From positions 66,321-130,320 of the forward strand of contig JAUXGA010000008.1 of assembly GCA_030622545.1 (NCBI GenBank): a stretch of DNA of 64,000 bases, in the 5' to 3' direction. A model generated the notes under the pieces. That model saw nothing but the letters and a program-made list of their open reading frames with translations, was not told where the DNA came from and did not search any database. The position numbers and the translations under genes are program-made. This document shows, piece after piece, positions 522-58,454 of the stretch (its first letter is position 1; each line of letters opens with the position of its first letter). Source of the DNA: a bacterium (GTDB lineage: Bacteria; Electryoneota; RPQS01; DYHQ01).

Positions 522-1985
522 TTATTTCAACAGCATCATCTTCTTTGTCGTCATGAAATTCCCTGCCTGCAAACGGCAAAGATAAATCCCCGATGCCAAA
601 CCCGAACCGTCAAAAATAACCGCGTGACTTCCTACAGACTGAATATTATCCATGAGGGTAGCGACTTCCCGACCAAGCAAGTCGAAAACTTTCAATGACA
701 CATGTCCCGCTTTTGTCAGGTCGAAGCTGATTTGCGTCGATGGATTAAACGGATTCGGATAGTTCTGGTGCAGTACGTATTTGTCCGGAAGAGGACTTAA
801 CATTGGATCAGCCGCCAATTCCGGCCCCGTCTTCACCAGCCAGAAATCACTATCGCCCGCCCCGTAGGACCTAGTTTCCCCCCCAAGAATATAGCCGCCA
901 TCCGATGTTTGTTGAACAGAATTGCATCCATCCAAGTCGCTCCCCCCGAAGGTGCAGCTCCACTCTTCTGTACCACTGGCATCCGTCTTCACCAGCCAGA
1001 AATCTGCATCGCCCGCCCCGTACGACATGGTATACCCCCCAAGGATATAGCCGCCGCCTAACGTCTGCTGAACCGATGAGCAAACATCTTCATCGCTTCC
1101 CCCGAAGGTTGTATCCCAAAGCTGTGTGCCACTAACATCCGTCTTCACCAGCCAGAAATCATTAGAGCCCGCCCCGTAGGACATTGTTCCTCCCCCCAAG
1201 ATATAGCCACCGTCGGTGGTCTGCTGAATCGAAGTGCAAACATCATCATAGCTTCCTCCGAAGGTGCGGCTCCACTCCTCGGTGCCACTAACGTCCGTCT
1301 TCACCAGCCAGAAATCAAAATAACCCGCCCCGTAGGAGTCGGTATACCCCGCAAGGATATAGCCGCCGTCGGTGGTCTGCTGAACCGACCAGCAAATATC
1401 ATTGCTGCTTCCCCCGAAGGTGCGGCTCCACTCCTCTGTGCCACTAACATCCGTCTTCACCAGCCAGAAATCACATTCGCCCGCCCCGTAGGACCTGGCA
1501 TACCCCCCAAGGATATAGCCGCCGTCGGTGGTCTGCTGAACCGACAAACAAACATCAGAGTTGCTTCCCCCGAAGGTGCGGCTCCACTCCTCGGTGCCAC
1601 TAACGTCCGTCTTCACCAGCCAGAAATGAAGAGAGCCCGCCCCGTAGGACCTGGTCATCCCCCCAAGAATATAGCCGCCGTCGGTGGTCTGCTGAACGGA
1701 AAAGCAAACATCATCATCGCTTCCCCCGAAGGTACGACTCCAGAGGCTGTCTCCGTTCGCATCCGCCCGAACCAGCCAGAAATCACTACCGCCCACCCCG
1801 TAGGAATAGGTCTCCCCTCCAAGGATATAGCCGCCGTCGGTGGTCTGCTGAACCGAAGTGCATTCATCCCTATCGCTTCCCCCAAAGGTGTGACTCCACA
1901 AGCTGTCCGGCTGGGCAAACGCCCCCGAAACCAAGACAAGCAGAGCCATCCCCCACGCAACAAGACTAAAAATGCGCATGTTCAT
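522..1985 (-). CDS. T9SS-sorted secreted protein with seven 52-residue repeats
   Basis: The 487-residue product has a signal peptide ending SGAFA|QPD. Seven tandem copies of a 52-residue unit follow (consensus FGGSxxDxCxSVQQTTDGGYILGGxTxSYGAG, then DFWLVKTDVSGTEEW). The underlying DNA repeats with a 156-bp period and is nearly identical between copies. Seven such units suggest a seven-bladed beta-propeller. The last ~80 residues (NYPNPFNPSTQISFDL to the terminal MMLLK) are a type A T9SS C-terminal sorting domain, so the protein should cross the outer membrane through the SprA system. A GGAGAG ribosome-binding site precedes the ATG. The gene starts 14 bp after the DNA methyltransferase stop and may share its transcript. 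Its ligand or role is unknown. Confidence 0.9.
   Translation of the reverse strand: MNMRIFSLVAWGMALLVLVSGAFAQPDSLWSHTFGGSDRDECTSVQQTTDGGYILGGETYSYGVGGSDFWLVRADANGDSLWSRTFGGSDDDVCFSVQQTTDGGYILGGMTRSYGAGSLHFWLVKTDVSGTEEWSRTFGGSNSDVCLSVQQTTDGGYILGGYARSYGAGECDFWLVKTDVSGTEEWSRTFGGSSNDICWSVQQTTDGGYILAGYTDSYGAGYFDFWLVKTDVSGTEEWSRTFGGSYDDVCTSIQQTTDGGYILGGGTMSYGAGSNDFWLVKTDVSGTQLWDTTFGGSDEDVCSSVQQTLGGGYILGGYTMSYGAGDADFWLVKTDASGTEEWSCTFGGSDLDGCNSVQQTSDGGYILGGETRSYGAGDSDFWLVKTGPELAADPMLSPLPDKYVLHQNYPNPFNPSTQISFDLTKAGHVSLKVFDLLGREVATLMDNIQSVGSHAVIFDGSGLASGIYLCRLQAGNFMTTKKMMLLK
835..1900 (-). repeat. 156-bp tandem coding repeats, seven units (approximate span)
   Basis: The phrase tgcggctccactcct recurs at 1265, 1421 and 1577, exactly 156 bp apart, and flanking text repeats almost word for word. 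The repeats encode the 52-residue propeller-like units. Near-identity at the DNA level points to recent duplication or gene conversion. Confidence 0.85.
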
Positions 1986-5725: not shown

Positions 5726-6349
5726 CTATTTCTCCCCCGGCCCTGCCAGAAGCTCACGCATCGCGGCGACGCGAGAGATCAGGAAGTGCCGTCCGATAAT
5801 ACCGATGAGACCGACGACCAAGCCGCAGACGGTTGTCACCATCGCGACATACATGCCTCCCGCCAGACTTTGCATCGTGACATGCTCGACCAGCGTTTGC
5901 TCCCGGAAAACCTGAACCAATCCCACGACGGTTCCGAGCAATCCCGATACCGGCGCGGCGGCAATCATCATGTCAAGGAAGAGGAAGCGATTCTGAAGGC
6001 TTTCCATTTCAAAATCGACAGCGTGGCGAGGGTCGAGACCACCGCCCGTTGCGAGTTTTCGAATCGTCTGGCGAATTCCCTCTAAAAAGCCTTTCTGATG
6101 AAAGCGGATCAGGTAGTAGGCGGTGAAACCTAATCCCAAGAACAGCAGAATTGCTTGAAAGAAGTAGATCCAGACATCAAAAGCCCGAAACAGCACCACA
6201 AAAACCCCGATGCGCTCCGACATAGTCACATGACGGCCGACATCTCCGGTCTGGGCGAAGGACACACCCACATAAAACAAAGCCAAACCTGCAGCGACTA
6301 AAGCCACCTTAAGAAGTGCGCGCGAACGTTTTTCATTCCATCGAAACAT
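5726..6349 (-). CDS. exbB: ExbB/TolQ/MotA-type proton channel protein
   Basis: The 207-residue product has an N-terminal hydrophobic segment ending VSFAQTGD, a second membrane helix (VWIYFFQAILLFLGLGFTAYYLI), a cytoplasmic loop, and the conserved MotA/TolQ/ExbB core (MIAAAPVSGLLGTVVGLVQVF, then MYVAMVTTVCGLVVGLIGII). With ExbD it should form the proton-driven motor of this operon. It is the first gene of the minus-strand run, behind a promoter at 6403-6431 and an AAGGAG ribosome-binding site. The first hydrophobic segment could be either a membrane helix or a cleavable signal, which is unusual but seen in some ExbB proteins. Confidence 0.9.
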   Translation of the reverse strand: MFRWNEKRSRALLKVALVAAGLALFYVGVSFAQTGDVGRHVTMSERIGVFVVLFRAFDVWIYFFQAILLFLGLGFTAYYLIRFHQKGFLEGIRQTIRKLATGGGLDPRHAVDFEMESLQNRFLFLDMMIAAAPVSGLLGTVVGLVQVFREQTLVEHVTMQSLAGGMYVAMVTTVCGLVVGLIGIIGRHFLISRVAAMRELLAGPGEK

Positions 6350-6431: not shown

Positions 6432-6812
6432 GATGAATATTGACAATCTTCTGAAAAATCAACCTGCTTGATTTCGAAACGCACAACCCAGAATACCGGA
6501 AAATCCTTCTTGATGCAACGAAAAACGCCTTTCTCTCGTTACATACAAGGCAGGCTTCTTGGTAACCTTCACGAAAATAATCGATTTAAGATGTTATATA
6601 TCAATAGGTAACATCTTTTATCATTCGAGCAGGGGTGGCTCAAAGGTTTTCGGGGCCAGATTTTTGCCTTGCAATTCATTAAGAAAAATGGTAGATTTAC
6701 ATTCCCAAAAATCTTGCAGGCATTCGCTCAGGAGGACATGGTAGCTCTGGCTATGGATCTTCATTGTTAAACCCTATCGGCTCGATACCGATTGGAGTCA
6801 TTGCGCACAAGA
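6432..6812. other. Intergenic region upstream of sprA
   Basis: This is the non-coding stretch between the exbB promoter and sprA. It contains a perfect 9-bp inverted repeat, AAGATGTTA (6588-6596) and TAACATCTT (6609-6617), AT-rich and followed by TTTTATC. That could be an operator or a weak terminator. It also holds a short ORF with a strong ribosome-binding site at 6738. I see no convincing plus-strand sigma-70 promoter, tRNA or known riboswitch. Confidence 0.5.
6738..6770 (+). CDS. Possible 10-codon leader ORF ahead of sprA
   Basis: AGGAGG stands just before ATGGTAGC, which encodes MVALAMDLHC and then TAA. This is the best Shine-Dalgarno sequence in the region. The frame is the same as sprA, whose start follows within 22-58 bp. 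It may be a translated leader, or the relic of an original sprA start closed by a nonsense change. A chance match is also possible. Confidence 0.25.
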   Translation: MVALAMDLHC

Positions 6813-9800
6813 ATGCCTGCACCCACGATGCTTTCGAATAAAAGCCGTTTTTCCCTTCGTTTTTTCCCACTGGCCTTTCTTCTTTTGGTCGGAAATCCAA
6901 CCATTGCGCCCGCGAAGGTTGGTTTTTACTACTCCTGTGCGGATTCGCTGACAACAAACTTCCTCGTCCGGCGACTCCCTCAAGGTCTTTCCCTCACACC
7001 CCACGCTCTACTGGAACGCCCCACTTCCAATTTCTATGTCATCGAAACCGTTATCGACAGCAGTCTGCAATATGTCATACTGCGCGAACGAATTAAAACA
7101 GACGACATGCGTCCTCCGACGGTTTTAACCTATGAGGAATACCGCGACCTGCGTTTGGCGGCGGATATCCGTCAACTGTTCCATGAAAAAACGCGCGCCG
7201 CGTTCAAATTCCAAAAAGTTGCCGCCTCAGGAGAAGGCATCGCGATTGACGTTCCCTTCCGTATTAAAAGCCGCACATTCCGCCGGATTTTCGGCGGCGA
7301 GCGCGTGGGATTGCGCGTGAGCGGCGATATCAGCATCAATGGTCATATCCGGCGGCAAAAATTTTCTCAGATTCAAACCGCCAATAATCAGAACGCTTCC
7401 ACGTCGTTCCTGATTGACCAGACTCAACGCTTTACCATCGAAGGGAAAGTCGGGGAGAAAGTCAGAGTGCGTGTGGATCAAGATTCCGAACGTCTCTTTG
7501 ATTTTCAGAACTCTATCGCTCTGACCTATACCGGCGACGAAGATGAAATTGTCCAGTCTATCCAAGCCGGGAATATTGACATGCGTCTGGGCACCAAACT
7601 CGCGACATTTTCCGGTCGCAATCAGGGTCTTTTTGGTCTAAAAACAGAAGCGAAAATCGGCGCTCTCACTCTGACCGGCATCGCCTCTCTCGAAAAAGGA
7701 CAGAAGAACAAGCAGCGTCCGAACGCCAGCGGCTCTCAGGCTCGTCCTCCGTTTTCAGAAAAAGACTACCTGCGCGGTGTCTATTTCTTTCTGAGCGATG
7801 CAGAGTATATGTTTACGGATACCGATGGCAGGGAAAAGACCTTCTGGGATTATCGCGAGAATTACCGGAACTTCGTCAATCGAACCCATGTGGCGGTGGC
7901 CGAACTCGGGCGCATTTCCTCCATTGAAGTCTATGTCTCAAGTAATACCTATTCGGGCGGGCAAGGTTCGACACCTTTGCCCGGCGTCGCCGTGTCGTGG
8001 CCATACATCGGCCAGCCCCTACTTGACGATTCCCTGATAGGAGACCATGAGCATCGCAGCGGGCAGTTCCGGCGGCTTGATTACGCGTCCGGCGAATACG
8101 ACTTCGATAGGGCTCTTGGGTTTATCCGGCTGCGGTATCCGGTTACTCAGGGAGACATTTTGGCTGTTGCCTATGCGACAGCGGCGGGTGATACATTCGG
8201 TGTCTTGGCCGCTAACCCGGACAGTCTGAGGCTTTTGCTGCTGAAACCTGAGAGTCCCCAACCGACCGATACCACATGGAATCTCATGTTCCGGCATGTC
8301 TATTCACTCGGCTCTTCAGATATAAATCCGGACAATTTCAAAATGGAAATCGTCCGTTCCGCCAGCAGCGCCAATATTCCCGAGACCGGTTTACCGGGGC
8401 TGAACGAAACCTATCTGACCACCTTCCGCTTTGACATGGAACAGGAAACAGGTGGGGGAGATCCCGACGGCAAAGTGGACAACCTGCCCGCTCTTATCCG
8501 ATACGACCGTGGTGAGGTTCATTTCCAAGACCTGACACCTTTCTGCCCGGAAGGATTCTGGGATGGCCCAAGCGGGGGAACTTTCATGACGTATCCTCTA
8601 CCGGATTCCGGCAAATACAAGCATTGCGAACTTTATACGAATACAAGGACTGTCATTCAATCTCGGAGCGCCTATTGGAGCTTCCAAACGGAATTCCGCG
8701 GCTCGCGTACTGTCTATGATTTAGGCCCTCTCGTCCTCGAAGGCTCCGAAGAAGTGATTCTGAATGGCGTCCATTTGCAGCGCGGAATCGACTACACCAT
8801 CGATTATATGTCCGGCCAGCTCCGTATTTTGAGTGAAGCGGCGAAAGCCGAAAACGCCGACCTCGAAATCCTCTACGAAAGCGGCACCGTTTTCCAGCTC
8901 GAACGCAAAAGCCTACTCGGGCTCCGGGCGGAATATGAACTATGGGAAGATTCCTACATTGGAGGGATGTGGCTCTACCTTAATGAAAAACCCCTCGAGA
9001 AGCGTGTCCGTGTGGGTTCGGAACCGGTTCGCAATACTCTCTATGACATAAATACAAAGCTGACGTTCCGTCCCCAATTCCTGACCCGCGCCGTGGATTT
9101 ATTACCCTTAGTCAACACGGAAACACCTTCTCTGGTGACATTTGATGCGGAAGTTGCCCGCGTGTATCCGAATCCGAATTCAATGGAGAATCAAGCCACG
9201 GGTGATGTGGGAGGATTGGCCTATCTGGACGATTTCGAAAGTTCCCGAAGAGCGGTTCCGCTGGGACTTTTGCGGCGACAATGGATGCTGTCTTCAATTC
9301 CTGTGGATACCGATATTGACTCCCTCCGCGGCAGGATGATTTGGTACAACCCAACGGTCAGCGGACAGGTTCCGGTTCAGGAAGTCTTCCCGGATAAAGA
9401 AGTCAATCAAAATGTCGCCAACACGCTCCAGTCTTTGAACATCACATTCCGTCCGGATTCAAGTACGGGCGACGCTACCCGCAGTTGGGGCGGAATTATG
9501 CGCTACCTCGGAGAAGCTTATGCCGACCAGACCCTTTCGAAATTCATCGAAATCTGGGTCAAATGGGACGGAAATAACGACGGGCGGTTGGTCGTTGACC
9601 TCGGACAGGTTTCCGAGGACGCCCTGCCGGATAATCAGATGAGTACCGAGGATCGTCCGGAACCGGGACAGCCGCAACCCGGCGACGCCAGTTTTGACCC
9701 GCGCTGGGAATATGGAAACGGCATTATTAATGGCCCTGAGGAAGACACCGGGATTGACGGCATCGCGGGACCCGCGGACTCCGCTTACTGGAACGGCTTG

Positions 9801-12800
9801 ACCCGACCGAAGGTCCCCTCTATGGACGACTGGAATTATACCGCCGGGACAAGCTACTACGAGAACATCAACGGCACCGAAGGAAACCTGAACGACGAGA
9901 GCGGCAACTATCCTGACACGGAAGACCTCAACAACAACCAAGTCCTCGATCTCCAGAATCACTACTATTCGTATAACTTCTGGCTAAACGATAGCTGCCA
10001 CTATATCGTGGGAGGTCAAACGAATATCTACGGTTGGCGTCTCTTCCGAATCCCTTTAGAAGAATACTCGAATACCGTCGGCAATCCTTCGTTTACGCAG
10101 ATCCGTTTTGTCCGTGCCTACCTGACCGGCTGCAGCGGAGACAGAAACGGGAACAAGAACATTAAAATCGTCCAGTTAGACATCGTTGGCAACGAATGGC
10201 AGCAAGTATTCCCGGTCGATTCCGTCGAGCGTGTCAGCGTTGCGATCATCAACAATCATGAGAATCCCGGTTATGTCAGCCCTCCGGGTGTGCAGGGAGA
10301 AATTGATCCCATCTCGGGCGTGCGTTCCAAAGAGCAGTCCCTCGTTCTCGAGATACACGAAGCGAAATCTTATTTGGATCCCGTGCTGGACGGTGGATGG
10401 ATTGCGAAGAATCTTTACACCTCGATAAACCTCCTCGAATACCGCCGCTTGAAGATGTTCATTCATGGCGGAGGAACGGATTACACCACATTCCCGGAAG
10501 GACGGCTCGAACTCATCTTCCGGCTGGGATACAGTTACGCGGACGTTTTCGATAACTACTACGAGATAAATAAAATTGTCTATCCCGGTTGGGCGGAATC
10601 GAATACGATTGATATTGCCTTAAATGACCTGACACGCCTGAAAACCCTCCGAGACGCTGATACTCTCTATTCCCCAGAATTTCCATTCTACGAGACGCTT
10701 GATTCCGTCACCACCGTCAGTATCCTCGGCAATCCCGCTCTGTCGCGTATAGGATTCTATTCATTAGGTGTCCGGATGGCGACCCGGCCTCCGGTTTATA
10801 ACGAGGAAATCTGGGTGGATGAACTCCGCCTTTCCGAAGTGTATAAAGATCCCGGAACCGCCGCGGATGTAAGTGGTCAGGTGAAACTCGCGGATTTAGC
10901 GACGATAAACGTAGGCTATGAAACTCGCGACGCTGATTTTCACAATGTAAATACGCGTATCGGTGACCAGAATACCCGTGAAACGAAGCGCGCTTCCGCA
11001 AAAATTTCTCTCCACAAGTTCTTTCTCGACCGATGGGGCTTCAATCTTCCTTTATCGCTAAATTATTCTGATTCTAAACAGACTCCAAAATATTTTCCGA
11101 ATTCGGATTTTCGAGTCAATCCTGATCACGCGCCGGACAGCATCAAATCGCTGAAAACGGATTACAGCGCTCAGATTAATTTTTCGAGGGCGGGAAGCGG
11201 GAAATATGCTCTGACGAACTACACCATAGATCGTATCACGGGCGGCTTCTCTTTTTCTCGAAGTGATGGAAGCAGTTTTCAGGAGGTTGAACGCTGGAGC
11301 GAGTCGCGAAGCGCCAACGCCGCCTATAGTTTCCCCACCAGCCGCGGCCGGGGAGTCGCGCCTCTCTTCTTCCTGCGAGGAATCCCGATGATCGGCGTTT
11401 TGGGCGACAAACGGTTCTACTATAAGCCGACCAAAATCACCACCAGCGCGGACGCCAGCGAATCCTCCAGCCATCAGGAGCAGCGCACCGGCGTCGTGCA
11501 GGATACTCGAACCCTGCGGACCAATCGAAACTTCTCGACCGGTTTTAACTTCTTCGAACCGCTGACGATGGATTATGGGCGAACCATCCGTTCGGATTTA
11601 TCCAATGGAGATTGGAAAGATTTGACCCGGCTTGATTTCGGTCGGGATTCCGACATCTCGCAGAACTTTTCATCCAATTATAATCCGACCTTCGCTTCCT
11701 GGCTGCGCTCCGATTTCAGCTATAATGCAGACTACCGCTGGGCACACAGCAATTTCGCGCAGGACAACTCACAGAGTATTTCCAGCAACCGAACCATCCG
11801 GACGGATTTCCAGATTGACCTCTTTCGGGTTTTAGGAGAGGTCAAAGAACCCTCCGCCGCATCTCCGTCAGAAGAACCATCGGAAGAGCCTTCGGAAGAA
11901 TCCTCCGGGTTTTCAGAATTTCCTTCAGGCGAGGGGTCTCCTCCGGACAGTGGAGCCGTACGCGAAGACAGCGTCCAGACTCCGAAACCTCGGGCAAAAT
12001 CGCGGGGAAGTCTTCTTGACATGCTGCTAAATCCTGTGCGAAAAATATCTCGGTCTGTCGATCCCATCAGTTTAACTTACAATCAGGGGCGCTCGCATAC
12101 TCAATCGGCGACGATAGGTCAGGCCGATTGGGGTTATCAATTCGGTTTGACACAGACTCCGAATGTCGATACGGTCGGAGGCTATACGCAGGTGCCTGCG
12201 CTTTCTAAAAACGAAGACTACGACCTGCGTTCAGGCTTCCGTATCGGTCAGAATATTCGTGTTGGACTCAGTCACGCGCTTCGCATCACATCGTCGATTT
12301 CAAATGCAAGCACCGGCTCGCGCGAAAGCACCGTCTTCTTCATGTCAAGCAAAGGAGGAGACGTCACGGCGATACCCTTCTTTGACTGGACCTTCGATTG
12401 GTCAGGCCTGTCTTCGTTTATACTCTTCCGGAAAGTGACCGAGTCAGTCAGTCTCAATAACGCTTTATCGAATCGCGTGCGAGAAAGCTGGACAGGAAGC
12501 GCCAGCCAAATCACTGGCAAGTCCTATACCCAGCAATGGAATCCCCTTATCGGGCTGAATATTCTATGGAAATATGGAATAGATTCACAAATCCGATACA
12601 GCTCCAGCAGCTCGTTTGAAGATCAAGTGCAGACGTCGACAAAGCGACGTTCGAGTGAACAGCAAATCTCGCTGACGATGGGTTATTCAATTCGCACAGG
12701 CTTCCGCATTCCGGTTCCCTTCCTCAACAGATTTCGACTGACAAACCAGACCAACATCTCCCTGGCCTTTGACAACCGCTCCTCTAAATCGGAATATACG

Positions 12801-12998
12801 CCGACCAGCAGCGGAGAATTTACGGTTCAGAGCGAGTCCAGTTCGTGGAATCTGACTCCGCGGCTAACCTATACGTTTTCCAACACCGTCAACGGACAAA
12901 TTTATATGCAGATGAGCACGAATGACGATAAGATTCCTCCGCGAAAATCACGTAGTTTCGAATTCGGAGTTCAGATCAATATTGCGATTCGCGGATAA
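6813..12998 (+). CDS. sprA: SprA, outer-membrane translocon of the type IX secretion system
   Basis: At about 2,060 residues this matches the SprA/Sov family, the giant beta-barrel that exports T9SS substrates. The N-terminus carries a signal peptide (RFSLRFFPLAFLLLVGNPTIAPA). The body contains long barrel-like alternating segments, the family hallmark GGLAYLDDFESSRRAVPLG near residue 800, and a C-terminus ending in an aromatic-rich strand (SRSFEFGVQINIAI). A low-complexity EEPSEEPSEEPSEESSG segment interrupts the barrel near residue 1700. The ORF track begins at a TTG (6792); ATGs at 6813 and 6828 are alternatives and none has a strong ribosome-binding site. Three proteins in the window carry T9SS sorting domains, so substrates are encoded nearby. 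The next gene overlaps its 3' end. Confidence 0.92.
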   Translation: MPAPTMLSNKSRFSLRFFPLAFLLLVGNPTIAPAKVGFYYSCADSLTTNFLVRRLPQGLSLTPHALLERPTSNFYVIETVIDSSLQYVILRERIKTDDMRPPTVLTYEEYRDLRLAADIRQLFHEKTRAAFKFQKVAASGEGIAIDVPFRIKSRTFRRIFGGERVGLRVSGDISINGHIRRQKFSQIQTANNQNASTSFLIDQTQRFTIEGKVGEKVRVRVDQDSERLFDFQNSIALTYTGDEDEIVQSIQAGNIDMRLGTKLATFSGRNQGLFGLKTEAKIGALTLTGIASLEKGQKNKQRPNASGSQARPPFSEKDYLRGVYFFLSDAEYMFTDTDGREKTFWDYRENYRNFVNRTHVAVAELGRISSIEVYVSSNTYSGGQGSTPLPGVAVSWPYIGQPLLDDSLIGDHEHRSGQFRRLDYASGEYDFDRALGFIRLRYPVTQGDILAVAYATAAGDTFGVLAANPDSLRLLLLKPESPQPTDTTWNLMFRHVYSLGSSDINPDNFKMEIVRSASSANIPETGLPGLNETYLTTFRFDMEQETGGGDPDGKVDNLPALIRYDRGEVHFQDLTPFCPEGFWDGPSGGTFMTYPLPDSGKYKHCELYTNTRTVIQSRSAYWSFQTEFRGSRTVYDLGPLVLEGSEEVILNGVHLQRGIDYTIDYMSGQLRILSEAAKAENADLEILYESGTVFQLERKSLLGLRAEYELWEDSYIGGMWLYLNEKPLEKRVRVGSEPVRNTLYDINTKLTFRPQFLTRAVDLLPLVNTETPSLVTFDAEVARVYPNPNSMENQATGDVGGLAYLDDFESSRRAVPLGLLRRQWMLSSIPVDTDIDSLRGRMIWYNPTVSGQVPVQEVFPDKEVNQNVANTLQSLNITFRPDSSTGDATRSWGGIMRYLGEAYADQTLSKFIEIWVKWDGNNDGRLVVDLGQVSEDALPDNQMSTEDRPEPGQPQPGDASFDPRWEYGNGIINGPEEDTGIDGIAGPADSAYWNGLTRPKVPSMDDWNYTAGTSYYENINGTEGNLNDESGNYPDTEDLNNNQVLDLQNHYYSYNFWLNDSCHYIVGGQTNIYGWRLFRIPLEEYSNTVGNPSFTQIRFVRAYLTGCSGDRNGNKNIKIVQLDIVGNEWQQVFPVDSVERVSVAIINNHENPGYVSPPGVQGEIDPISGVRSKEQSLVLEIHEAKSYLDPVLDGGWIAKNLYTSINLLEYRRLKMFIHGGGTDYTTFPEGRLELIFRLGYSYADVFDNYYEINKIVYPGWAESNTIDIALNDLTRLKTLRDADTLYSPEFPFYETLDSVTTVSILGNPALSRIGFYSLGVRMATRPPVYNEEIWVDELRLSEVYKDPGTAADVSGQVKLADLATINVGYETRDADFHNVNTRIGDQNTRETKRASAKISLHKFFLDRWGFNLPLSLNYSDSKQTPKYFPNSDFRVNPDHAPDSIKSLKTDYSAQINFSRAGSGKYALTNYTIDRITGGFSFSRSDGSSFQEVERWSESRSANAAYSFPTSRGRGVAPLFFLRGIPMIGVLGDKRFYYKPTKITTSADASESSSHQEQRTGVVQDTRTLRTNRNFSTGFNFFEPLTMDYGRTIRSDLSNGDWKDLTRLDFGRDSDISQNFSSNYNPTFASWLRSDFSYNADYRWAHSNFAQDNSQSISSNRTIRTDFQIDLFRVLGEVKEPSAASPSEEPSEEPSEESSGFSEFPSGEGSPPDSGAVREDSVQTPKPRAKSRGSLLDMLLNPVRKISRSVDPISLTYNQGRSHTQSATIGQADWGYQFGLTQTPNVDTVGGYTQVPALSKNEDYDLRSGFRIGQNIRVGLSHALRITSSISNASTGSRESTVFFMSSKGGDVTAIPFFDWTFDWSGLSSFILFRKVTESVSLNNALSNRVRESWTGSASQITGKSYTQQWNPLIGLNILWKYGIDSQIRYSSSSSFEDQVQTSTKRRSSEQQISLTMGYSIRTGFRIPVPFLNRFRLTNQTNISLAFDNRSSKSEYTPTSSGEFTVQSESSSWNLTPRLTYTFSNTVNGQIYMQMSTNDDKIPPRKSRSFEFGVQINIAIRG

Positions 12999-13899
12999 AT
13001 TTTTCAGCGTCTTTCTCTTCGCTCTTGTCTTCGCTTTCGGGCAGTCATCGGCGTGCGCCGAGGTGCCTGAGTTTGATGACAGACACGCTTTCTTTCTATT
13101 GGAAGCGCAATGCGCCATTGGTCCGCGCAATCCCGGTTCAACGGGACACGCTCAAGGCCTGGAATTCCTGCAGCGTGAACTTAGCTTTTGGGCGGACACC
13201 GTCTTTCTGCAAACCTTCACGTACGACAGCAAAGACCGCGGGACGACACTAAGACTGTCCAACATCATCGGTCGCCTGAAACCCGAAGCACGCTCGCGGA
13301 TTCTGCTGTGCGCTCACTGGGATACCCGGCCTGTCGCTGACCACGACCCGAATCCCGAAAATTGGGATACACCGATTCTCGGAGCAAACGACGGCGCGTC
13401 CGGAGTCGCCGTTCTCTTGGAAATTGCGCGACGCTGCGCTCTCGACCCTCCCGATATCGGTGTGGACATCGTTCTTTTCGATGGCGAAGACTACGGCATT
13501 GACGGCTCGCCCACCGACTGGCTTATCGGCTCGAAATATTTCGCCCGCAATCCTGTTATCCCCCGCGTGCGCTATGGCATTCTGCTCGATTTAATCGGCG
13601 ACAGAGATTTGCATATTCCCATCGAAGATGCGTCGTTTTTCTACGCACGCGAAATCGTCGAGAAGATATGGACGACGGCTCGCGACTTAGGAATTACGAC
13701 GTTCGAGAATAGAATCGGCCAGGCGATTTATGACGATCATATTCCGCTCAACGAAGCCGGCTTACCCACCGTCGATGTTGTTGACTTCGACTATGAATTC
13801 TGGCACACCGTGCGCGATACGCCCGCCGAATGCAGTCCGAAATCCCTCGAAGACGTCGGACGCGTGATAATGCATGTCATCTATAACGAGAAACCATAG
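12982..13899 (+). CDS. Type II glutaminyl-peptide cyclotransferase / M28-fold zinc enzyme
   Basis: The product is an exported M28-fold protein. It has HWDTRP, then GANDGASGVAVLLEIAR with the metal-binding Asp, DGEDYG with the catalytic Glu, LLDLIGDRD, and FWHTVRD with the metal-binding His. The wording GANDGASG, EDYG, SKYFA, DDHIPLNEAGLPTVDVV and WHT is closest in my memory to the type II glutaminyl cyclases of Bacteroidetes, which convert an N-terminal Gln to pyroglutamate. An aminopeptidase role cannot be excluded. The ORF track starts at 12922. I prefer the TTG at 12982, which begins a good signal peptide (RFADKFFSVFLFALVFAFGQSSACA) and overlaps sprA by only 17 bp. Co-transcription with sprA suggests it acts on exported proteins. 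Confidence 0.82.
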   Translation: MRFADKFFSVFLFALVFAFGQSSACAEVPEFDDRHAFFLLEAQCAIGPRNPGSTGHAQGLEFLQRELSFWADTVFLQTFTYDSKDRGTTLRLSNIIGRLKPEARSRILLCAHWDTRPVADHDPNPENWDTPILGANDGASGVAVLLEIARRCALDPPDIGVDIVLFDGEDYGIDGSPTDWLIGSKYFARNPVIPRVRYGILLDLIGDRDLHIPIEDASFFYAREIVEKIWTTARDLGITTFENRIGQAIYDDHIPLNEAGLPTVDVVDFDYEFWHTVRDTPAECSPKSLEDVGRVIMHVIYNEKP

Positions 13900-13910: not shown

Positions 13911-15107
13911 ATGAAGAAATCAACAAATCGCCGCTCCACTCTAATGTTTGTCTTTCTTCTGAGCGCAATTGGCTTTGGTCTCTTTCTCTCGTGTTCAACA
14001 ATGGACCCTAATGGTATCATCTCTCCCCCAGACTATACCATAATAATAGAAGAAATCCCTGAAGCTCTTCCTGTAGATGTTGCAATCTATTTCCCAATCG
14101 TTATCCAACTGGAACCAAGCAATCCGGACATTGATTCGCTCTATTGTTTAATCTTTAATCCCGAAAACGAGTCTTTCCTGGATTTCTATCTTTATGACGA
14201 CGGCTCAGCTTTCGACCATCCAATGGAAAGCACTCTTTTAAGCGTGCGTTCCGGCGATAATGTACCCGGTGATAGCAGATTCACGCGGCAGATTACCGGA
14301 CAAGATTTCGAAGGTGATTTCGGCACTTACACTTTCGATTTCGTAACACCTGATGGAGATAGCTATTCAGACTCCATCGACATCCAACCTGTCGAAGCGC
14401 CCTCGTTTACAAGTGTCACACCGGTCATCTCAGAATTCCCGTCGGGCTTTGATCCCGTCGAATATGAAGTGCATATTCATAGACCCACTGCGAGTGATCG
14501 CATTGATTCGGTTTATCTTGCGCTTTGGTATTCGGGCATACCGACGAGCGATTTACGACATATTCCTTTCACTGCAAGTTTAGGCGATACTGTATGGACG
14601 TTGACCCTAACACCCGGTCATTTCTGGGGAATTCCTTCGGGTCTCTACGATTTTCAGTTTGTGCTTTGGGACAGGTTTGGTCTCTCAGCAGATACCGAGC
14701 AGCGATTTATCAGCATTGCAAACGGCCAGCCAGTCGTTTCGAATCCGGTTATGCCGGATACTATATGGCGTCCCCGGCAAGGCGAACCCAACGACACCAC
14801 CGTTATCACCGTTCAGGCCGACGACCCTGAAACGCTGCTGGACATCGCCACCGTGCGTTTCGAGGTGCGCAAAGTCTGGGAAACCGAATGGACCGGCCAC
14901 GAGGATTTCTATCTCCTCGATTTGGGAGGCCGATGGGATGATGTGGAGGGCGATGGCGTTTACAGCGTTCCGTTGGTGACAGCGTTTAGCGATTCTCTGA
15001 AAGACGATCTCTTCTATTTCCGTTTCTTTGCGATTGACTTCACGCAGGACACCAGCAACTACGTCATCGACAGCGTCCGCGTCATTGAACCCGTTGTCTT
15101 GCTATAA
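13911..15107 (+). CDS. Lipoprotein with Ig-like regions, unknown function
   Basis: The 398-residue product has a signal peptide and lipobox LFLSC (Cys28). The rest is beta-rich, with several ~90-residue segments that resemble Ig or FN3 folds (for example PVVSNPVMPDTIWRPRQGEP, then TVITVQADDPETLLDIATV and DVEGDGVYSVPLV). The phrase GRWDDVEGDGVYS occurs in many FCB surface proteins. A very good ribosome-binding site (GAGGAGG) precedes the ATG, 11 bp after the cyclase gene, so the gene is in the sprA operon. It may be a cell-surface lipoprotein accessory to secretion, but nothing in the sequence proves this. Confidence 0.8.
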   Translation: MKKSTNRRSTLMFVFLLSAIGFGLFLSCSTMDPNGIISPPDYTIIIEEIPEALPVDVAIYFPIVIQLEPSNPDIDSLYCLIFNPENESFLDFYLYDDGSAFDHPMESTLLSVRSGDNVPGDSRFTRQITGQDFEGDFGTYTFDFVTPDGDSYSDSIDIQPVEAPSFTSVTPVISEFPSGFDPVEYEVHIHRPTASDRIDSVYLALWYSGIPTSDLRHIPFTASLGDTVWTLTLTPGHFWGIPSGLYDFQFVLWDRFGLSADTEQRFISIANGQPVVSNPVMPDTIWRPRQGEPNDTTVITVQADDPETLLDIATVRFEVRKVWETEWTGHEDFYLLDLGGRWDDVEGDGVYSVPLVTAFSDSLKDDLFYFRFFAIDFTQDTSNYVIDSVRVIEPVVLL

Positions 15108-15692: not shown

Positions 15693-16337
15693 ATGATGAG
15701 CCCGATATTTCGATACATCCCAGTGCTTTTACTTGCCGCCTTCGTGCCGTGCCTATATGCTGGAACACCGGCAGAGCAGCGTTTCGACAAAATGGAACGC
15801 CATTTGCGCGAGTTGCAGTCGTTAGAAGTTCACTATACGGCTGAGGGAGAAGCGTTTGCCGACAGCGCACTCGGTGGCCGGATGGTCTGGATTCGCCCGG
15901 ACCGATTCTACCATGACACGCCGGAATGGACGCTGGCACAGCATGGCGACGAAAAATGGCGCTATCTTAAAGGCCAAAGCACTCTGATACTGGAAACAGT
16001 TCGCGACGATGACCCGCAATTGCCCGAAGAGGTGCTCTTTGCCCTGAATGAAGAAGTGGCGGCGGAAACTCTGGCAATTGATCCCGCGGAATCCGGGGCG
16101 CATAAGTTGACGCTGAAAACCACCAATGAACAGGCCACAGGTGAGTTCTGGCTCTGGCTGCATGCCGATTCCGACCAGCCTTTAAAAATCGCCTGGCGGC
16201 TCCCCGATGGAACGGTTGCCGCTTATCGCGTCGAAACATGGCGTGAAAATATATCGGTTGATGACGGCCTTTTCACTCGCCCCGATGCGAGTGAAACTAT
16301 TGACTTTCGCTTAAAGAAAGAAACGGACAAGAGGTAG
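15693..16337 (+). CDS. lolA: LolA-like outer-membrane lipoprotein carrier
   Basis: The product is 214 residues with a signal peptide (YIPVLLLAAFVPCLYA). The mature sequence follows the LolA pattern: an N-terminal helix (RFDKMERHLRELQSLEVHYTAEG), strands with MVWIRPDRFYHDTPEW, WRYLKGQSTLILE, and a strand region near WLWLHADSDQPLKIAWRLPDG. LolA ferries lipoproteins across the periplasm from LolCDE to the outer membrane, and this window encodes many lipoproteins. It starts at tandem ATGs (15693, 15696) behind the promoter at 15567. The gene ends 7 bp before the flippase-like gene. LolA-like periplasmic proteins with other jobs exist, so the exact role is inferred. Confidence 0.75.
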   Translation: MMSPIFRYIPVLLLAAFVPCLYAGTPAEQRFDKMERHLRELQSLEVHYTAEGEAFADSALGGRMVWIRPDRFYHDTPEWTLAQHGDEKWRYLKGQSTLILETVRDDDPQLPEEVLFALNEEVAAETLAIDPAESGAHKLTLKTTNEQATGEFWLWLHADSDQPLKIAWRLPDGTVAAYRVETWRENISVDDGLFTRPDASETIDFRLKKETDKR

Positions 16338-36282: not shown

Positions 36283-36864
36283 GTGAGAACATTACTCATT
36301 ATTTGCCTTCTAAGCTTGTTTGCATTGTCGATTCCCTATGCGCAGGCAAAGTCGTATCCGTTGGGCGTGGAGGCCTTCTTCGGCTGGGACGCACCTCTTG
36401 TTCAAGAGGACGTCAACAGTGGGCAGATGTGGGGTGTATCGGTGCGCGGCCACCTGTTGGCCTTTTTGCATGGACAGCTTGTCTTCCGTTCAACGTCGCA
36501 GCTCGATAAGGATATCGATGTGCAGCCGATAGGTACAGCTCCAATCACCGAAACGCTCGAAGGAGGGTCTTTGACTGGCTTCGGAGCGAATCTCATTTTG
36601 GCCGGTCGCGATCCGGCTTCGATTTGGCCGTATGGATTCGTCGGAATCTATTCGAACAACTTCAAACCCGGCAATCGCGACAGTGAAACCCTTTTCGGAC
36701 ATGCCTGGGGAGGGGGACTGGCCATCAACCTTTACCACAATCTTGTCTATGCGGACGTGAGCACCAGCCTCCTTATTATGCCGATTGAGGGCGGCGAAGC
36801 GACGCGCAAGAATTGGCAGGCGACTCTTGGTCTCATGTACATGTTTCAAATTCCCATGAAATAG
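36283..36864 (+). CDS. Outer-membrane beta-barrel protein (OmpA/porin-like, small)
   Basis: The start is a GTG with AGGAGGGA upstream. The 193-residue protein has a signal peptide ending IPYA|QAKS. It then alternates short strands and turns (GVEAFFGWDAP, MWGVSVRGHLLAFLHGQLVFR, TGFGANLILAG, WPYGFVGIYSNNFK, AWGGGLAINLYHNLVYADVSTSLLIM) and ends in an amphipathic strand with aromatic residues (WQATLGLMYMFQIPMK). This is the pattern of an eight-stranded outer-membrane barrel. No specific function can be assigned. The following lipoprotein gene is 12 bp away. Confidence 0.75.
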   Translation: MRTLLIICLLSLFALSIPYAQAKSYPLGVEAFFGWDAPLVQEDVNSGQMWGVSVRGHLLAFLHGQLVFRSTSQLDKDIDVQPIGTAPITETLEGGSLTGFGANLILAGRDPASIWPYGFVGIYSNNFKPGNRDSETLFGHAWGGGLAINLYHNLVYADVSTSLLIMPIEGGEATRKNWQATLGLMYMFQIPMK

Positions 36865-51975: not shown

Positions 51976-52626
51976 TTAAGGTTTTTCGGGTAGCAGCGCT
52001 CCCTGACGCTCTAATTGAACCATTGTCAGATTCACCAAATCCGCAAGCGTGGAGACCTGATTGATGTTCAACTCTCTATCGTGGGCTTCCTGCTGCGAAG
52101 TTTCAGGAAAATGAAGCTCGATATGCTGCACCGTGCCCTGTTGCCGAAAGAGGATTTCCCACGCGCTTTTGCCGAGGAAAAAGATTTGCGTATCGGTTCG
52201 ATTCGATGTCCGCATCCCTTCGGCTGTCTTCACAAGGTAGCGAAGCGCTTCCTCGAACGGCGCGAGTTCATCGACGTCAAGTATCGCGAATGCTAAAGGC
52301 TTGTCTTGCCCCTTCAGCACGAGATTCGCACCGAAATAGCGAGTCGTGTCGCCGGGCTCGAACGCCATGTCGGTGTAAAGTTCCACCGCTTCAAGCGTCT
52401 TTGCCTGAGCTTTGCCAAAGGGGAATTTGCGGTGGCTGCGTTCCGAGAGCGGCACACTTCCGACGAAAGTGCAATTGCGAAACATCGTGCGACCCGGCGT
52501 CTGCAGCTCCCATTCATAGTCTGTTGCCGGTTCGATGTCCTGAGCCAGCGACAAAGCGGTCATGAACAGAAGAACTGCAAGTACCACAGCGCTTCCGATA
52601 CCTCCCTTACTTCTTCCGCTTATCAT
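51976..52626 (-). CDS. Exported protein of unknown function, nuo cluster
   Basis: The 216-residue product has a signal peptide ending ALSLA|QDIEP. The mature part (MFRNCTFVGSVPLSERSHRKFPFGKAQAK, FAILDVDELAPFEEALRYLVKTAEGMR, TDTQIFFLGKSAWEILFRQQG) shows mixed alpha/beta content and no known motif. Its 5' end overlaps the preceding exported-protein gene by 20 bp. The pair lies between nuoB and nuoC on the same strand. It is probably periplasmic or secreted, which makes a direct role in the cytoplasmic arm of complex I unlikely. Confidence 0.75.
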   Translation of the reverse strand: MISGRSKGGIGSAVVLAVLLFMTALSLAQDIEPATDYEWELQTPGRTMFRNCTFVGSVPLSERSHRKFPFGKAQAKTLEAVELYTDMAFEPGDTTRYFGANLVLKGQDKPLAFAILDVDELAPFEEALRYLVKTAEGMRTSNRTDTQIFFLGKSAWEILFRQQGTVQHIELHFPETSQQEAHDRELNINQVSTLADLVNLTMVQLERQGALLPEKP

Positions 52627-53029
52627 AATTCTGGTGCTGCCAGCAATAACGCGAGCCTTTCTTGGCTCGGCGTGTGCAGCGTGTTCCCTTCAGGGTAATC
52701 GCTTCGCACTGGTGAAATTCCGAAGATTCTTCCTGAACGGCACTCACGTTTGGAGAGACTGTATCAGGCGGAGCATACTTCAGTGCCGTCGATACACGCA
52801 CCCAGCCTTCGACAGAGATTTTCGCCCAGCTCGCGACGGTGTCCAGAATCTGAACGCGCGCTCCGGGAATCATCGTCCCGACCACCGGACCGCAGGGAAT
52901 CGCCCATAACGTATCGGACTGAACGCTGCTTTCCTGCGGCGTTATCAGGCTATCCGGAAGCGCACCGCCTTGCTGAGCCAGAACACTTCCCGCGATGATG
53001 AGAATTAGTAATACGCGATACAGGATCAC
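52607..53029 (-). CDS. Exported SH3-like protein with Cys/His C-terminal motif
   Basis: The 140-residue product has a signal peptide ending GSVLA|QQGG. Residues from about 45 to 85 (WAIPCGPVVGTMIPGARVQILDTVASWAKISVEGWVRVSTAL) are a bacterial SH3-type domain, often a cell-wall binder. The C-terminus has CEAITLKGTRCTRRAKKGSRYCWQHQ, a short Cys3-His motif found in other bacterial proteins and suited to binding zinc. It sits 6 bp after nuoB. The combination is odd, and function is unknown. Confidence 0.75.
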   Translation of the reverse strand: MILYRVLLILIIAGSVLAQQGGALPDSLITPQESSVQSDTLWAIPCGPVVGTMIPGARVQILDTVASWAKISVEGWVRVSTALKYAPPDTVSPNVSAVQEESSEFHQCEAITLKGTRCTRRAKKGSRYCWQHQNYDKRKK

Positions 53030-56696: not shown

Positions 56697-58454
56697 ATGA
56701 AACAGCTTTGCACGTACGTCCTCCTGCTGACTTTCGCACAAACCAGCCTCGCTCAACTTTCCGGGCCATTAAGCGGCACCCTCGGCCCCGGCGAATTTCA
56801 TGTCGTTGGTACGATTTCAGTCGAATCCGGAGATAGCCTACGCCTCATGCCCGGAACGATTTTTCGATTTGACGGACCTTATCCATTCGAAATCTACGGA
56901 ACATTGCTGGCGGAAGGAGTCGAAGGCGATTCCATCGTCTTCACCACCGATACGCTCGTAAATCCCGACCGCTGGCGAGGTCTGCGATTTTTCAATGATG
57001 GTAGTTCGGGAGGGCGACTGGCCTATTGCGTCATTGAAAACGGCCTTGCGGCTGGCCCTTGGCCCAGTTGCGTGGGGGGTGGCGTGTACTGCCAGGATTC
57101 CTCGCCCGCTTTCACGCATTGCGCTGTCTATGCTAACCAAGCGGTTCCTTGGCAAGGGATTGGCGGTGCGGGCGGCGGCGTGTATTGCGACAATTCTGCA
57201 GCGCTCTTTACGAATTGCAATATTCAGGCGAACTCAGCGGATGGCGGCGGTGGTGGAGCGTTTTGCTATCGATCTTCGGCTAATTTTGTGGACTGTAGCC
57301 TCTGCGGGAATTTTGGCGGCGGCGTGGCGTGCTGGAACGATTCTTCGACAAGCTTTACCAATTGCATAATGAGCAATAACTCGGCAGCATTCGGCGGCGG
57401 TGTGTCCTGTTCCGAATCTTCTCCGAGATTCACGGATTGTACTGTTTCAAACAATTCGGGAATTGGCGGTGGAGTATATTGCTTTGGCTCTTCGCCGAAC
57501 TTCGTGCATTGCCTCATCAGCAATAACCAGTCACCGGGTTTCGATGGCGGCGGTGTATTCTGCGACCACTCTTCGCCGAGCTTCACGAATTGCGCCCTGA
57601 CCGACAACTGGACCTATGGTGTCGGCGGAGGAATAGATTGCGAGTTTTCTTTTCCCGAATTCACAAATTGTACATTCAGCGGTAATTGGGCAGGAATTTT
57701 TGGCGGCGCTCTCTTTTGTTGCTATTCTTTGCCAACTCTGACCAATTGCACGATGATCGGCAATTCAGCTCGCGAAGATTATGGGGGCGGCGTTTACTGC
57801 GACTATTCTTCTCTGACAATCAACAGTACTATTATTGCCTTCTCCCAAGGCGATGGGATCCATTTCGGATCAGCCACAGGAGAATGTCGAGTCGCCTATT
57901 GCAATTTCTTTAACAATAGTAGTGGAGATATTGTGGGCAATGGTCCCCCGGGACTCGCCGAACTCATCACCACAAACGCCAACGGCGATTCGTGCGATAC
58001 TTACTACAATATCTTTCTGGATCCAATGTTCGCTGACACAGCGGCGGGTGACTTTCATTTGATGGAAGGCTCGCCGTGCATTGATGGAGGGGATCCAGAG
58101 TTGCCTTATGACCCGGACAGCACCATCGCTGACATTGGCGCACTCTACTATCATCATGATGCCGCAGAAATGCCCGTCGCGTTAGTGCCGACGAGTCATG
58201 CTCTTCACCCCAACTGGCCGAATCCGTTTAATCCGACGACAACGATTCGCTATGACGTGAAACAAACCGGGCAGGTTCAATTGACGATTTTCAATTTACT
58301 CGGGCAAAGAGTGGCGACGCTAACAGATGGAAAACATCTCGCCGGTTCTTATACGATTTCATGGAATGCGAGTGATTTACCGTCGGGGATTTATCTCTGC
58401 CGAATGGAAACGCCGGGCTTCATGCAAACGCGGAAGCTTGTGCTATTGAAGTAA
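56697..58454 (+). CDS. T9SS-sorted parallel beta-helix protein
   Basis: The 585-residue product has a signal peptide ending AQTSLA|QLSG. An entry segment (GEFHVVGTISVESGDSLRLMPGTIFRFDG) leads into about 12 repeats of the type GGGVYCxxSSPxFTNCxxxxN, a right-handed beta-helix with stacked Cys and Asn residues. DFHLMEGSPCIDGGDPELPYDPDSTIADIGALYYH closes the helix. The C-terminus (NWPNPFNPTTTIRYDVKQTGQVQLTIFNLLGQR to the terminal KLVLLK) is a type A T9SS sorting domain. AAGGAG precedes the ATG. It is most likely surface-exposed or secreted, possibly adhesive; no catalytic residues are recognisable. Confidence 0.9.
   Translation: MKQLCTYVLLLTFAQTSLAQLSGPLSGTLGPGEFHVVGTISVESGDSLRLMPGTIFRFDGPYPFEIYGTLLAEGVEGDSIVFTTDTLVNPDRWRGLRFFNDGSSGGRLAYCVIENGLAAGPWPSCVGGGVYCQDSSPAFTHCAVYANQAVPWQGIGGAGGGVYCDNSAALFTNCNIQANSADGGGGGAFCYRSSANFVDCSLCGNFGGGVACWNDSSTSFTNCIMSNNSAAFGGGVSCSESSPRFTDCTVSNNSGIGGGVYCFGSSPNFVHCLISNNQSPGFDGGGVFCDHSSPSFTNCALTDNWTYGVGGGIDCEFSFPEFTNCTFSGNWAGIFGGALFCCYSLPTLTNCTMIGNSAREDYGGGVYCDYSSLTINSTIIAFSQGDGIHFGSATGECRVAYCNFFNNSSGDIVGNGPPGLAELITTNANGDSCDTYYNIFLDPMFADTAAGDFHLMEGSPCIDGGDPELPYDPDSTIADIGALYYHHDAAEMPVALVPTSHALHPNWPNPFNPTTTIRYDVKQTGQVQLTIFNLLGQRVATLTDGKHLAGSYTISWNASDLPSGIYLCRMETPGFMQTRKLVLLK

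Follow-up and report, generated by a model that had tools for sequence, protein, structure and literature searches.

How widely is the capping of exported proteins by glutaminyl cyclase shared outside the Bacteroidetes, and is it tied to type IX secretion (T9SS)? The window analysed here, a stretch of 64,000 nucleotides from a bacterium of the phylum Electryoneota, raises both questions through a gene, qc, that overlaps the 3' end of sprA. In the Bacteroidetes Q-rule, substrates of signal peptidase I show a sharp excess of Gln exactly at position +1 and the cell exports a cyclase. The literature treats the rule as peculiar to Bacteroidetes (PMC5837995, PMC10653852), where proteolytic pressure has been offered as its explanation (PMC10653852). 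Levels of +1 Gln there are 60-70%, with about 71% as a published figure and over 48% in nearly all members (PMC5837995, PMC10653852). Chloroherpeton and Ignavibacterium stand out as high outliers outside Bacteroidetes (PMC5837995), and a high Gln value beyond that group thus has a precedent. A sequence-only reading of the window proposed that this lineage uses the same capping, genetically coupled to the T9SS. The features discussed below are collected in Table 1.

Table 1. Features of the window. A slash marks a predicted signal-peptidase cut; Hs and Pg prefix the equivalent residues of reference cyclases.
Feature	Position	Strand	Remarks
T9SS cargo (CTD)	522..1985	-	GAFA/QPDSL, +1 Gln; Pfam, NCBIfam, predictor
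Membrane protein (ExbB in the sequence-only reading)	5726..6349	-	Possible SFA/QTGDV; three further TM segments, cleavage uncertain
sprA/sov, T9SS outer-membrane translocon	6792..12998	+	TIGR04189, 825 bits; directly upstream of qc
qc, predicted type II glutaminyl cyclase gene	12982..13899	+	305 aa; TTG start within sprA 3' end
Active-site core of qc product (predicted roles)	13390..13491	+	D137-G138 zinc ligand (as PgD149-G150), E169 catalytic (HsE201), D170 zinc ligand (PgD183)
Remaining active site (predicted roles)	13588..13806	+	D203 (HsD248), D252 in YDDHIP (HsD305), W274-H275 (HsW329-H330; H275 zinc ligand)
Lipoprotein, 398 aa	13911..15107	+	12 nt after qc
Exported protein	51976..52626	-	LSLA/QDIEP, +1 Gln; predictor P 0.87
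Exported SH3-like protein	52607..53029	-	SVLA/QQGGA, +1 Gln; Pfam, predictor
T9SS cargo (beta-helix plus CTD)	56697..58454	+	TSLA/QLSGP, +1 Gln; Pfam, NCBIfam, predictor

Fold and active site of the qc product

The qc gene overlaps sprA by 17 nt, counted from its TTG start to the sprA stop, and an in-frame ATG at 12922, from which the frame is open, provides an alternative start. Pfam profile searches placed the product in the M28 fold (PF04389, 3.7e-34), while NCBIfam returned only weak aminopeptidase matches. The nearest sequences in the PDB were Bacteroidetes cyclases (3gux, 1e-67; 6qro, 1e-61). An AlphaFold (AF2) model of the protein had a mean pLDDT of 93.9, and its best Foldseek matches were again Bacteroidetes cyclases (TM 0.88). 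On VIA structural alignment the model matched BtQC (4fuu) with a Z of 46.1 and 1.1 Å over 279 residues, and the cyclases of Bacteroides thetaiotaomicron, Tannerella and Porphyromonas with Z 44-46 and 1.1-1.3 Å, compared with a Z of about 31 for the M28 aminopeptidase BSAP. The M28-like alpha/beta match to the solved cyclases spans the whole domain.

We assigned roles to the active-site residues from published work (PMC7948796, PMC5837995). The predicted zinc ligands D137, D170 and H275, the putative catalytic residues E169 and D203, and D252 are present in all 81 sequences of the homologue alignment, and W274 in 76 of the 81; the protein thereby carries the type II set of a zinc Asp, Asp/Glu and His with a catalytic Glu and Asp, together with the YDDHIP and FWHT motifs. 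Bacterial cyclases have Gly after the first zinc Asp and Trp before the zinc His, whereas dinuclear aminopeptidases have Asn/Asp and Tyr at these places (PMC7948796). At both diagnostic sites the aminopeptidase residues are absent from the qc product, which has Gly138 and Trp274 instead.

These data bear on the alternative that the protein is an M28 aminopeptidase and no cyclase. Its support comes from the common fold, which gives M28 aminopeptidases their Z of about 31, and from the aminopeptidase matches in NCBIfam. The closer structural match to proven cyclases, the Gly, the Trp at the place of HsW329, the two motifs and the mutual exclusion of type II and type I cyclases in the phylum (see below) make this alternative highly improbable. 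By modelled fold and predicted active site, the product of 12982-13899 is a type II (animal-type) glutaminyl cyclase. This bears out the sequence-only reading, which had recognised an M28-fold enzyme with cyclase motifs overlapping sprA and had suggested modelling it against a bacterial cyclase.

The Bacteroidetes enzymes PgQC (PG2157), TfQC and BtQC share with the qc product, at 37-42% identity, the fold, the Asp/Asp/His zinc ligands, the Gly after the first zinc Asp, the Trp-His motif and periplasmic export. The qc product differs from them in that its gene adjoins sprA and in that, in the lineage of the window, it is probably cleaved by signal peptidase I instead of being a lipoprotein. Its signal peptide was predicted to be cut between ACA and EVPEF, and it is predicted to be soluble in the periplasm or, less probably, a lipoprotein with the weak lipobox SSAC.

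Glutamine at position +1 of exported proteins

To count residues at +1, we built a signal-peptide model of n-, h- and c-regions with classes for signal peptidase I, lipoprotein and membrane anchor, trained by EM on pooled genes. The mature part, including +1, is scored as background, and the cut site therefore cannot be pulled towards Gln; the model mildly favours Gln at -2, a bias that runs against finding Gln at +1. On E. coli its calls agreed, by eye, with known signal peptides. It replaced two hand-tuned scorers that made too many false calls and put +1 Gln in the window's genome at 13-20% depending on the threshold.

With this home-made predictor, applied to 847 kb of the 2.66 Mb genome (32%), 21 of the 79 proteins called as exported carried Gln at +1 (27%), against 3.4% at positions +3 to +16 (P=2e-13). 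None of 20,000 position shuffles reached this count, and the peak was restricted to +1. In three relatives from the phylum the counts were 13/45 (G002), 14/51 (G004) and 11/46 (G030), and each of the four genomes exceeded its flanking background at P<3e-6. Cyclase neighbourhoods from many named lineages gave 43/111. By the same method, Bacteroidota plasmids reached 21/34 (62%) and E. coli 4/41 (10%). The window's genome lay below the Bacteroidota (p=6e-4) and, less strongly, above E. coli (p=0.035). E. coli favours Ala at +1, whereas the phylum genomes single out Gln. The +1 Gln rule in the window's genome is thus real but partial: signal peptidase I substrates are enriched, yet about 73% of exported proteins, the cyclase among them, lack +1 Gln, and the level falls short of the 48% exceeded in nearly all Bacteroidetes. 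The genome-wide count against a shuffled background, which the sequence-only reading had called for, came out in its favour, as did its view that the rule is partial.

Within the window, all four Ala/Gln junctions proposed from the letters alone (genes at 522, 51976, 52607 and 56697) were recovered by the predictor although it is blind to +1. A fifth, tentative junction at 36283 did not survive, since the predicted cut AQA/KSYP leaves Lys at +1; for the sixth, in the ExbB-like protein, SFA/QTGDV was indeed predicted but the extra membrane segments leave cleavage uncertain. Among five proteins listed as exported without +1 Gln, four were confirmed, namely 15693 (G), 25226 (T), 27910 (G) and the cyclase (E), whereas 30295 received no signal-peptide call.

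In the window's own genome, +1 Gln was commoner in T9SS cargo (8/14) than in other exports (13/65; p=0.008). This enrichment was not repeated in G002, G004, G030 or G014, and because of that we dropped cargo specificity as a rule and do not claim it. In P. gingivalis, pyroglutamate is not a T9SS sorting signal (PMC5837995).

Pairing of qc with sprA

We surveyed 80 named cyclase loci, 74 of them with enough upstream sequence, and found sprA immediately 5' of qc in 31/74. Adjacency was seen in Marinimicrobia (14/14), Calditrichota (6/8), KSB1 (3/5), Zixibacteria-labelled loci (3/3) and Krumholzibacteriota (1/3), and in none of the surveyed Poribacteria or Ignavibacteria loci. Across 45 sprA-qc pairs from the named loci and those of relatives, three of them duplicates, the median gap was 4 nt; 32/45 lay within 30 nt and 12 overlapped. 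Where the sequence downstream left room, a PorV/PorQ-family gene followed within 9.5 kb at 13 of 24 adjacent loci as against 2 of 30 others, usually accompanied by a CTD beta-propeller; the lipoprotein gene often lay in between. In a tree of the cyclases, sprA adjacency falls on many deep branches, with at least six changes on starred branches. The link is therefore wide, and is either ancestral with losses or repeatedly formed. It is not universal: in families f3 and f5, qc lies apart from sprA, and three Poribacteria (L074, L077, L079), whose genomes measure about 5 Mb, encode a type II cyclase but gave no match to SprA. The proposed genetic coupling of the cyclase to the T9SS is upheld by pairing conserved across several FCB phyla; qc shows the conserved linkage to core genes expected of a T9SS component, and the Poribacteria show that it is not confined to SprA genomes. 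The window-type cluster resembles known T9SS clusters in having sprA, PorV/PorQ-family and CTD proteins, and differs from them in having the cyclase as its second gene.

The lipoprotein encoded at 13911-15107 matched nothing in Pfam or NCBIfam, and its homologues occupy the same cluster in relatives, Marinimicrobia, Calditrichota and KSB1; we regard it as a candidate for a T9SS component not recognised before. After the sprA-qc-lipoprotein-propeller cluster come PorV/PorQ-family genes in tandem, at L195:10827-12679 (-), L094:13003-14826 (+) and L036:9047-14562 (+), and in the window's genome this half of the cluster is on another contig (C4). In relatives, qc (or sprA) is separated from the lipoprotein gene by a gene for a Ppx/GppA-family phosphatase, at L195:15483-16412 (-) and L187:15823-16794 (-); the window lacks it at this place. 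Downstream of the cluster in the window, 15693-16337 has a weak NCBIfam match to a LolA1-like periplasmic chaperone.

Two cyclase folds in one phylum

Type I (plant-type) cyclases (PF05096) presumably catalyse the same reaction as type II enzymes with an unrelated beta-propeller fold. In profile searches of 39 genomes of the phylum, 27 had type II, 9 had type I in its stead, with strong PF05096 matches at E below 1e-70, none had both and 3 had neither; 36/39 thus carry one of the two enzymes. The exclusion is significant when genomes are counted as independent and kinship is ignored (Fisher p=1e-6). Both types occur within the order of the window and likewise within family f5; provided that the order and the family are each monophyletic, the enzyme must have been switched twice or more. 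A comparison of two relatives illustrates such a switch. Gene order in G002 is sprA-qc-ppx-lipoprotein; in G004, ppx begins 5 nt after sprA, qc is missing exactly there, and a type I cyclase, whose nearest solved structures are type I cyclases, lies elsewhere and does not adjoin sprA. This is a pattern of non-orthologous replacement, and it provides the best evidence that selection acts on cyclase activity itself.

Family f4 includes two genomes, G014 and G019, that are rated 98-100% complete and have neither type. G014, rated 100% complete and with SprA present, gave no match to type I or type II, and still has +1 Gln in 16/76 exported proteins (21%), not significantly different from the window's genome (p=0.46). 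The expectation that +1 Gln vanishes without a known cyclase fails in this genome: with 21% kept in G014, the frequency of +1 Gln is not coupled to the presence of the known enzymes. The genome may have a third, unrecognised cyclase, or its +1 Gln may be a relic of an ancestral trait.

A proposed model for pyroglutamate capping

We consider it likely that a periplasmic type II cyclase caps +1 Gln as protection on a substantial fraction, though less than half, of the exported proteins, and that pairing with sprA serves co-expression. Cleavage by signal peptidase I would expose an N-terminal Gln, the cyclase would convert it to pyroglutamate in the periplasm, with the exported Gln proteins as its presumed substrates, and the cap would shield them from aminopeptidases. 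As the T9SS load crosses the periplasm, pairing with sprA would most likely provide co-expression with the T9SS; the pair would be an ancestral or repeatedly formed arrangement in several FCB phyla and the cyclase no mechanistic part of the translocon. The claim that capping is the same as in Bacteroidetes stands in part. It holds for the type II fold and active site, the +1 Gln excess and the conserved sprA link. It does not hold for the level of +1 Gln, which is intermediate (27% against about 71% published), nor for its persistence, outside Bacteroidota, in G014, where both known cyclase types are missing, and it gains nothing from cargo in the relatives. Together, G014, the Poribacteria and the cargo results argue against a strict dependence of Gln on the cyclase and against a T9SS-only role.

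The cyclase could instead be a dedicated T9SS accessory whose capping targets are SprA, PorV-type proteins or cargo during transit, with general capping of the periplasm secondary. Tight coupling to sprA across several phyla and deep branches of the cyclase tree, the CTD propeller and PorV/PorQ-family neighbours, and the cargo bias in the window's genome all point this way. We nevertheless find such a role unlikely in view of the four relatives that lack the cargo bias, the Poribacteria with a cyclase and no SprA, families f3 and f5, replacement in G004 by a type I enzyme unlinked to sprA, and the P. gingivalis result. It is similarly doubtful that the Gln excess reflects a cyclase-independent preference of signal peptidase I or of export in the FCB lineage. 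The level in G014 would fit such a preference, as would the non-significant differences between G014 and cyclase-bearing genomes of the phylum (p 0.38-0.82); yet Gln is singled out where E. coli prefers Ala, all but three of the 39 genomes retain a cyclase of either fold, and G014 may itself have an unrecognised enzyme or an ancestral trait. A broader conjecture, to which we give little credence, would make pyroglutamate capping an ancestral FCB trait tied to the T9SS, with the cyclase co-translated with SprA and capping proteins that cross the periplasm, type I able to replace type II, and a third cyclase in the family of G014.

Our literature search found no paper linking glutaminyl cyclase, type IX secretion and sprA. 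As far as shown, the sprA-qc pair, the exclusion of type I and type II cyclases in the phylum and the intermediate Gln level are new relative to the literature found. One presumed activity is supplied by two unrelated folds within a single phylum, and the coexistence of type II, type I and neither lineages makes the reason for Gln use directly testable. That almost all genomes of a second FCB phylum have a cyclase, with its two folds swapped and its gene paired with sprA across several phyla, suggests an older role for this activity, connected with envelope export and secretion.
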